Below are positions 42,602 through 45,476 of a stretch of DNA of 64,000 nt, piece by piece. The translations under genes and the position numbers were made by a program. Source of the stretch: Nitrospirota bacterium (GTDB lineage Bacteria; Nitrospinota_A; UBA7883; JACRGQ01); NCBI GenBank assembly GCA_024275955.1, contig JAJRYD010000003.1:1-64000 (forward strand). The letters run 5' to 3'. The notes under the pieces are model-generated. The model was not told the origin of the DNA. It made no database searches and saw only the letters and a program-made list of their open reading frames with translations. Within the stretch, counting starts at the first letter, position 1, and each line of letters begins with the position of its first letter.

Positions 42602-43681
42602 CTAAGCGTTCACACGGAAGTAGATAACATCGCCGTCTTTTACAATATACTCTTTGCCTTCGACGCGCATCTTTCCTTTATCTTTCGCGCCTTGCTCTCC
42701 GCCACAGGCTACATAATCATCGTACGCGGTAACTTCGGCGCGGATAAAACCTTTTATAAAATCGGTATGTATTACCCCTGCCGCTGTCGGCGCCGGCGAA
42801 TTTTGTACAACTGTCCATGCCCTTACCTCTTTTACCCCCGCGGTAAAAAACGTTACAAGCCCAAGAAGCTCGTAGCCTTTGTGTATCATCAGGTCAAGGC
42901 CGGTATCGGAAAGCCCCATCTCTTTTCTATATTCGTTTCTCTCTTCGGGAGAGAGTTCGGCTATCTCTGCTTCTACCTGCGCGACGATAGCGATAAAACC
43001 TGCGCCCGACTTTTCTGCATGTTCCCGCACCGCCTTTACATGAGGCCCATCCACGTCGGACGCGTCCATCATGTTCGCCACATACATTATTTTTTTCGCG
43101 GTCAGTAGCGGCATCTCCTTTGCCACATCCTCGCCGCCGGTTTCGATAGCGAGCTTTCCCTCTTCCAAGCCTTTTGCTATCGGCTCAAGTTTCGCCAAAA
43201 GTTTTATATCGTCCTTGTTGCCGGATTTCGCTGTTTTCCTTAATGACCTGATTTTCTTTTCCACGCTGTCAAGGTCGGCCAGCATCAGCTCGGCCTCTAT
43301 AATTTCGATATCGCGCAAAGGATTTATTGAACCCATTACATGAGTAATATCGCCAGATTCAAAACAGCGCACCAGATGCGCCACGGCATCTACCTGCCGT
43401 ATATGGCTGAGAAACTTATTGCCAAGACCTTCGCCCTTGCTCGCCCCCTCCACAAGCCCTGCTATATCTACAAACTCTATCTGGGTCGGCAATATTCTTT
43501 CGGGCTTTACAAACTCAGCAAGCTTTAAGAGCCGTTTATCCGGCACCGGAACTCTGCCGACATTAGGCTCCACGGTACAAAAAGCAAAGTTGCTCGCCGC
43601 CGCGCCGGCAGATGTAAGAGCGTTAAAGAGTGTCGACTTGCCGACGTTTGGAAGGCCGATTATTCCGCAGTTAAATCCCAT
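42602..43681 (-). CDS. ychF: Redox-regulated ATPase YchF
   Basis: A 359-residue Obg-family P-loop protein. The N-terminal GIIGLPNVGKSTLFNALTS and FCTVEPNVGRVPVPD are diagnostic, as is DIAGLVEGASKGEGLGN. The NMMD sequence (VANMMDAS) replaces the NKxD of G proteins, in line with ATP preference. A C-terminal TGS-like domain follows (TVVQNSPAPTAAGVIHTDF). It binds ribosomes and affects stress responses. Confidence 0.96.
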   Translation of the reverse strand: MGFNCGIIGLPNVGKSTLFNALTSAGAAASNFAFCTVEPNVGRVPVPDKRLLKLAEFVKPERILPTQIEFVDIAGLVEGASKGEGLGNKFLSHIRQVDAVAHLVRCFESGDITHVMGSINPLRDIEIIEAELMLADLDSVEKKIRSLRKTAKSGNKDDIKLLAKLEPIAKGLEEGKLAIETGGEDVAKEMPLLTAKKIMYVANMMDASDVDGPHVKAVREHAEKSGAGFIAIVAQVEAEIAELSPEERNEYRKEMGLSDTGLDLMIHKGYELLGLVTFFTAGVKEVRAWTVVQNSPAPTAAGVIHTDFIKGFIRAEVTAYDDYVACGGEQGAKDKGKMRVEGKEYIVKDGDVIYFRVNA

Positions 43682-43728: not shown

Positions 43729-44469
43729 TTAAAAGGCGGAGAGCCGCTCGGCAAAAGCGATTGTTTGCGCTTTTAAAGGCCCACCGATATCCGATGAAAG
43801 CCCTTTTATGACCACTGCTTGAGATTTTAGCTGGCTTGTGAGGATAGAGCTCTCCACTCCGGCAACCTTGCTCGAAAGCCCGCTCACCGCCTCTTTGAGG
43901 CTATCGACACCAGCCGTATTGGTCGAAATCTTTACACCAAGTTTTTCGACCGACAGCTTAGCCGAATCTAGCCCAGCACCGAGGCTTGCTATCTGCGCCT
44001 TCTCGGCAATTACCTGCTGGTTAAGCATGCCTACTTTGGCCGCAAGAGCTAAAACAAGAATAATGGCAAACCCAGCAACCACAGTACTCGCTTCGGGCCA
44101 TTTCCAACCGCCTTTTTCATTTTTGGAATCATTTTTCTTTTTGGCTTGCGGCTTTTTTTGGGCGGCCTCCTCTTTTTTCATACGCGCCGCCAAAACCTTC
44201 TCTGGCGAACTTTCTCTTACCGGCTCCAGCTTAACCGCCTCGGCCAACGCCCCCTGGTGGCTCGGCGCGGTCGAGATGTGGGCCACCTTTACTCCCGGTT
44301 TGGCCGGTTTGCTGGTAGCCGCAATAGGTTTGGAAACCCCGATAATGCCTGGGTCTACATATGTAATAGCTCTAACCTTTTTAAGCCCTTTTTTCTCTAA
44401 AAGCTTTATCAGCTCCTTTGTTGTTATTTTTCTGGCTTTTGCCAGTTCAAACACTCTTATTTTTTTCAT
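43729..44469 (-). CDS. Membrane protein with an N-terminal IF2_N-like domain
   Basis: A 246-residue protein. Residues 1-35 (MKKIRVFELAKARKITTKEL, then IKLLEKKGLK) match the small IF2_N domain that begins initiation factor 2. Nothing else of IF2 is present. A Pro/Lys/Ala-rich linker of about 90 residues leads to one membrane helix at about 128-147, and the rest (150-246) is a predicted coiled coil with regular Leu/Val spacing. Orientation by positive charge puts the IF2_N part in the cytoplasm and the coil in the periplasm. ychF follows on the same strand. Function unknown. Confidence 0.75.
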   Translation of the reverse strand: MKKIRVFELAKARKITTKELIKLLEKKGLKKVRAITYVDPGIIGVSKPIAATSKPAKPGVKVAHISTAPSHQGALAEAVKLEPVRESSPEKVLAARMKKEEAAQKKPQAKKKNDSKNEKGGWKWPEASTVVAGFAIILVLALAAKVGMLNQQVIAEKAQIASLGAGLDSAKLSVEKLGVKISTNTAGVDSLKEAVSGLSSKVAGVESSILTSQLKSQAVVIKGLSSDIGGPLKAQTIAFAERLSAF

Positions 44470-44612
44470 TACGAGACTTATACTATTCTACAAGCAAGCC
44501 GATTGGCAAGTGATAGAGGCAAAGCGACAGCTTCATTTGCACGCAGACGCTTCGTTTCCCGCTTGCGCGCTCTTTTTTTGGCTAAAACATGGTATTCGGG
44601 TATAATACGCTG

Positions 44613-45476
44613 ATGCTCAAATTATTGCCATCTGCGCTCGTGGCGGTTGTTATTTTATCTGGTCCGGCAGTTGCCGGCAAAAGAACTATCGGCGAAGTGG
44701 GGCTAGGCAAAAGCCATCTACAGGTTCCCTTACTTGGCGAGGTAAAAAAAACCGACATCCCTGAATCTATGTTCTACGAACAGGTCGACGATATAGTTCT
44801 GGAAGAAAAGCTTCTTACCGCAGGCTACATCAGCAAAAGCGACCAGCCGTACGGCCGGATTATCGACACCAACCACAAAGGGAAAGAGCTTTTTGACGGC
44901 GATATCGCATATATAAATCGAGGAAGCTCCGATAAGCTGAAAAAAGGAGATACTTTTTTTGTGTACCGGCGGATGAAAGAGATAATGGCAACTAATGACA
45001 AAAAAAAGAAAATTGGAAATCTTATTTCCATAAGAGGCAAGCTTAAGGTAATTGATGTCGGCAATGCCACCTCGGCCAAATGTATCGTCACAAAAGCCTA
45101 CGGCCCGATATTCACCGATGACTTCATAATCCCTCAGTTCAGCATCACTATACCTACGATGGATGAAGATAGACCTCTTGAAGATAAATCAATCACCGGA
45201 ACGATCCTCGCCATAAACGCCACGAACAGGGAGGGGATGGTCGGCGATGTCGTTTACCTCGACGTAGGCAGAGATGCCGGCGTGGATGAAGGAGATATAT
45301 TCGGGCTTTATGACATACCTGCCAAAAAAAGCGCGGCAGATAGGCTTGGCTACCGCAAACAGGTAGGCAAAGCGAGGGTGATTACCGTAAGAGGCGCCAC
45401 CGCTACCGCAATCATCACATACTGCGTCGAAGAGATTCTCGTAGGGCAAAATGTTGCCTACATACAGGAACGCTAG
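44613..45476 (+). CDS. Periplasmic protein, FlgT-like C-terminal fold possible
   Basis: About 287 residues with a signal peptide (LLPSALVAVVILSGPAVAG), starting at the ATG at 44613; eight further codons upstream are possible. Two similar beta-rich segments occur: GDIAYINRGSSDKLKKGDTF and GDVVYLDVGRDAGVDEGDIF. Each has the D/G-V-Y-x-x-G-x-x-x-G-x-x-x-GD-x-F shape seen in SH3-like C-terminal domains of FlgT and LysM-linked proteins. So it is a tandem of such domains, likely bound to the envelope. No partner identified. Confidence 0.65.
   Translation: MLKLLPSALVAVVILSGPAVAGKRTIGEVGLGKSHLQVPLLGEVKKTDIPESMFYEQVDDIVLEEKLLTAGYISKSDQPYGRIIDTNHKGKELFDGDIAYINRGSSDKLKKGDTFFVYRRMKEIMATNDKKKKIGNLISIRGKLKVIDVGNATSAKCIVTKAYGPIFTDDFIIPQFSITIPTMDEDRPLEDKSITGTILAINATNREGMVGDVVYLDVGRDAGVDEGDIFGLYDIPAKKSAADRLGYRKQVGKARVITVRGATATAIITYCVEEILVGQNVAYIQER

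Follow-up and report, generated by a model that had tools for sequence, protein, structure and literature searches.

Architecture of the locus

The window, as we call the whole 64,000-nucleotide stretch of DNA analysed here, carries on its reverse strand an open reading frame for a protein of 246 aa, whose features are collected in Table 1. Alignment of 20 orthologs resolved the same succession of parts in all of them: an N-terminal IF2_N domain, a linker, one membrane helix, a stalk and a C-terminal cap. Comparison among four genus-level relatives within the window's family showed dN/dS to be low in the IF2_N domain, the membrane helix, the stalk and the cap, and higher in the linker; the frame is a genuine gene and evolves under purifying selection.

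Table 1 Features of the membrane-anchored IF2_N protein gene and its surroundings (window coordinates; residues refer to the encoded protein)
Feature	Position	Strand	Evidence
Membrane-anchored IF2_N protein gene	43729..44469	-	ORF; orthologs in 22/23 class genomes; overall dN/dS 0.10-0.26 among genus-level relatives
IF2_N domain, residues 1-39 (reaching ~residue 45)	44353..44469	-	PF04760, 30.7 bits, cut-off 25.3; N1-like
Variable basic linker, residues 46-129	44083..44334	-	Orthologs: 48-152 aa, net charge -35 to +20
Linker short motif KVAHISTAPSH, residues 61-71	44257..44289	-	By-eye likeness to strings at loci L019 and L011
Single transmembrane helix, residues 130-148	44026..44082	-	Sole segment above hydropathy threshold
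Coiled-coil stalk, residues 149-208, predicted periplasmic	43846..44025	-	Heptad periodicity, z = 5.1
Conserved C-terminal cap, residues 209-246	43732..43845	-	Aligned in all class members; other-family profile match, E 5.9e-6
Putative -10 element TATAAG, 7 nt before ATG (candidate leaderless start)	44477..44482	-	TATAAT in 8/10 other family orthologs
ychF, downstream, 47-nt gap, possibly co-transcribed	42602..43681	-	YchF-GTPase_C, 127.9 bits

The N-terminal domain resembles the first IF2_N copy of IF2

In a Pfam scan with curated cut-offs, IF2_N was the only domain of the window protein to score above its cut-off (E 2.7e-7), and no GTPase or IF-2 domain did so. The first-pass annotation, made from the letters alone, had read these residues as IF2_N-like and proposed a profile search as the check. 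The significant score bears this reading out, and an AF2 prediction of residues 1-40 consists of short helices at modest confidence. The gene cannot be read as a piece of infB, since the genome encodes its own complete IF2 on another contig (C11), with both N-terminal IF2_N copies (N1 and N2), the GTPase domain and the IF-2 domains. As in IF2, the anchored domain stands at the extreme N-terminus and is followed by a flexible linker, whereas the rest of IF2 is replaced by the membrane helix, stalk and cap.

Every family of the class has members in which the domain can be detected, at 32-48 bits (top score 48.1) outside the window's family. Within that family all 11 members match at E <= 1, some of them weakly: in the genome search three passed the cut-off (the window, G006 and G002), three scored 22-24 bits, and the five that fell short of the E 0.001 threshold were linked to the family by full-length homology. 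Structure prediction was confined to the window and one locus. AF2 reached a pLDDT of 50.8 for the whole protein and 61.2 for residues 1-60, placing helices at residues 6-12 and 17-26 and a short strand pair in a block with pLDDT of 64-80. Foldseek searches with the whole-protein and N-terminal models gave no significant match; the IF2 structures 4b43 and 4b3x were among the ten matches, though at E > 1 (for 4b43, rmsd 0.7 over 25 columns). Claims about the fold from either model (whole protein or residues 1-60) were accordingly dropped, as confidence was too low and Foldseek not significant.

We then compared the anchored domains with profiles built separately from the N1 and N2 copies of the class's own IF2 proteins. 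The window domain scored 18.1 bits against N1 and 6.0 bits against N2, and the N1 profile prevailed for 17 of 20 anchored domains. These values suggest an N1-type domain, although the scores are modest and do not prove descent from the lineage's own N1.

The likeness to N1, together with the (K)IRV-x-ELAK start that IF2 N1 and the anchored domain have in common, raises the question of whether the protein recruits the partners of IF2 N1 (NusA with RNA polymerase, or the initiating 30S subunit) and so fixes transcription-translation complexes near the membrane. In Escherichia coli, pull-down, crosslinking and tracking show that N1 directly binds the C-terminal part of NusA, and this binding requires the AR1/AR2 region (PMC12297416). 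The NusA of the present genome is a protein of 339 aa (L108:844-1863) that ends after KH2 and lacks the C-terminal acidic-repeat (AR) region, so the E. coli mode of binding is not transferable as it stands; NusA was rejected as a ready-made partner, and binding through KH2 alone may occur. The E. coli N1, moreover, does not noticeably bind ribosomes (PMC12297416), and no gene of translation or transcription adjoins the anchored IF2_N gene outside the window's family. We therefore regard such recruitment as possible but doubtful. The more specific proposal, that the lineage has moved an IF2 N1 copy to the inner membrane to hold complexes of transcription or translation initiation there, appears unlikely; if true, it would give the lineage a device dedicated to gene expression at the membrane. 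On contig C11, nusA and infB are ~10 kb apart rather than adjacent.

The charge of the domain bears on another proposal of the first-pass annotation, the tethering of nucleic acid to the inner membrane, for which a small helix-turn-helix-like domain and a basic linker would hold chromosome or RNA. The window protein would suit this role, with a net charge of +9 in the domain and a further +9 in the linker, but it is the most basic of the orthologs, and a reading from this single sequence could have been misled. Across orthologs the 45-residue domain has a net charge between -3 and +9, in most cases close to zero, much like IF2 N1 and N2, and linkers run down to -35. RacA-type proteins, in which a MerR-fold domain and a coiled coil anchor the chromosome, offer a parallel: the IF2_N fold is presumably MerR-like too, a helical rod follows it, and RacA bound to DNA appeared in the Foldseek list of the whole model, at a non-significant score. 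The window protein differs in having a membrane helix, and the basic charge of its domain and linker is not conserved. For that reason a nucleic-acid tether is very unlikely, and we rejected it; the near-neutral domain of most orthologs favours binding of a protein instead, as does the NusA-binding role of E. coli IF2 N1.

Constant ends and a variable middle

The remaining parts foreseen by the first-pass annotation, namely a linker rich in lysine, alanine and proline, one membrane helix and a coiled coil, were all recovered. Linker length and charge vary widely among orthologs (Table 1). A few short strings recur by eye, in the window's family among some members only, with KVSHIFSAPSH (L019) and VISHIFPP (L011) resembling the motif of the window protein and (S/R)LSLVPP-like strings present in other families; these may be candidate docking motifs.

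Each of the 20 orthologs has exactly one hydrophobic segment, with mean Kyte-Doolittle values of 1.98-2.84 (2.43 in the window protein). Its N-terminal flank is at least as positive as its C-terminal flank in most orthologs, the difference being nil or reversed in a few. From this pattern of charge and hydropathy, together with an IF2_N domain that begins at residue 1, the topology is predicted to have the N-terminus inside and the C-terminus outside.

Within the window's family, heptad periodicity after the helix (assessed against permutations) is clear, with z of 2.1-6.5, and several members of other families show it weakly. The protein may oligomerise through this stalk, which spans 42-104 aa among orthologs; in G012, a protein of 497 aa, it has been extended by 42-bp tandem repeats encoding 14-residue alanine-rich units (L078:6333-6868). 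That stalk matches the Pfam Alanine_zipper family (PF11839, 30.7 bits), recalling alanine-zipper stalks such as that of the major outer-membrane lipoprotein. The present proteins differ in having no lipoprotein signal, and the match is confined to this one member, the stalks of the others having ordinary heptads or being weakly periodic.

At the C-terminus, the final ~38 residues can be aligned throughout the class, and no Pfam or NCBIfam family covers this region. NCBIfam models gave only weak matches to coiled-coil regions of the window protein, far below family cut-offs, and a PDB profile search returned only IF2 N-termini, generic coiled coils and unrelated chains. Because the length of the stalk varies while cap and IF2_N domain stay, the stalk looks like a spacer between two working ends, as suggested by the alignment.

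This layout also recalls RodZ, a single-pass adaptor in which a helix-turn-helix domain, a membrane helix and a periplasmic part follow one another. The protein could accordingly be a scaffold for cell shape or envelope, akin to RodZ or to polar adaptors, in which an N1 fold has been reused as a small cytoplasmic domain docking a cytoskeletal or polar protein; conservation in single copy across the class would fit a structural role of this kind. The domain nevertheless belongs to a different family, the window protein matches neither HTH_25 nor the RodZ C-terminal domain in Pfam even at E <= 10, no other scaffold domain emerged from the Pfam scans, and no morphogenesis genes were seen in adjoining positions. 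A scaffold of this type is consequently a doubtful reading.

A single-copy family apparently restricted to one class

The protein occurs in all 11 genomes of the window's family. A scan of the genome collection yielded one relative, in Nitrospinales bacterium isolate nzgw267; a profile of the window's family then led to further members, and a profile of those other families to the remaining orthologs (G011, G012, G013, G014, G015, G016, G018, G019, G020, G021 and G022). Altogether, 22 of the 23 genomes of the class hold one copy each. No ortholog was found in the class genome G017 (90% complete), nor in G023 (76% complete), the single genome of another class. The other-family profile also matches the C-terminal half of window-family proteins (E 2.4e-12 in G001; Table 1 for the window protein), which makes the two groups homologous in both halves.

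Outside the phylum (265 genomes), the other-family profile matched by its N-terminal part only, nearly always in frames of IF2 length. When 241 genomes were searched with a profile of the C-terminal half, every hit lay within the class (where G012, with its expanded stalk, was missed), and no protein with this half but without IF2_N turned up among them. The family thus appears, as found so far, to be restricted to one class of Nitrospinota, and, among the genomes searched, IF2_N is indeed as rare beyond IF2 itself as the first-pass annotation had remarked. Literature searches returned no paper containing the phrase 'IF-2 N-terminal domain-containing protein' and, for IF2_N combined with membrane, no relevant paper about such a protein. 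The domain architecture and the class-restricted family are new; single-pass membrane adaptors that have borrowed a domain are already known as a general kind.

Gene neighbourhood and start region

The gene downstream is ychF, as the first-pass annotation had stated, and the two genes possibly share one transcript. Within the window's family the two stand side by side on the same strand in 9 of 11 members, and no other family that we examined shows this pairing, so the neighbourhood, although conserved locally, was rejected as a functional clue. An accessory of YchF, working with the ribosome-binding ATPase encoded alongside, would agree with the arrangement in these nine genomes, but the protein is present in the other families without ychF beside it, and we consider this role highly improbable. 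A link to ribosomes and translation through ychF is likewise not supported. Elsewhere in the class the neighbours are different. Directly after the ortholog, families f2 and f5 have crcB, for a fluoride channel (loci among L031, L033, L077 and L018); antisense frames compatible with crcB occur in f6, along with a DUF190-like gene downstream; f5 and f6 have a divergent cytidylyltransferase-like gene; and in f4 the neighbours are (histidine) kinase, ubiX or radical-SAM genes. Names were assigned by eye, except for crcB and the cytidylyltransferase (Pfam). As neighbourhoods differ between families, genome context names no partner.

The other orthologs of the window's family that carry TATAAT do so 7-9 nt before the ATG (Table 1). 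Spacing of this kind is what a leaderless transcript would have, and these genes are candidates for one. It is not a common layout in this genome, since an exact TATAAT 5-8 nt before a candidate start was present at only 5 of 257 long ORFs (324 kb), and orthologs in other families do not have it.

Divergent from the anchored IF2_N gene, and kept nearby in 7 of the 11 genomes of the family, is an ORF (44589-45476, forward strand) whose FlgT_C-like product (25.8 bits, slightly under the cut-off of 27) looks secreted. Its start region (44577-44616, forward strand) contains TTGGCT-17-TATAAT ending at 44606, followed after six bases by an ATG in frame at 44613; the same layout, TATAAT-CCCTCA-ATG, is seen at L006. 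The start of the longest ORF is probably wrong here and the true start leaderless, judging from this spacing.

A proposed role as membrane adaptor

Our preferred reading, to which we assign a probability of about 0.5, is a single-pass inner-membrane adaptor with a cytoplasmic, protein-binding N1-type domain and a periplasmic cap that docks to the envelope. In such a protein the compact domain would face the cytoplasm on its flexible linker and act as a module for protein-protein interaction rather than as a binder of ribosomes or nucleic acid. Past the one membrane helix, a helical stalk of free length would carry the conserved cap into the periplasm, where it would dock to an envelope component; a cytoplasmic partner might in this way be held at the membrane, its place or state set by the partner in the envelope. 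The protein is thus probably a tether between cell interior and envelope. Domain homology, a lone membrane helix, constant ends around a variable middle, one copy per genome, conservation across the class and purifying selection are what the data show directly; the topology, oligomerisation by the stalk, protein binding by the domain and the roles of both partners are inferred. A tether had been the general idea of the first-pass annotation, and in that general form it is the best reading, whereas its ribosomal version was not supported and its nucleic-acid version is unlikely.

IF2_N hardly ever occurs outside IF2, and binding by the N1 copy has been addressed only recently. A class-wide family that carries this domain alone on the membrane provides a natural experiment on its binding away from translation, and for an uncultured branch of Nitrospinota the anchored IF2_N protein provides both a marker protein and a handle for pull-down.
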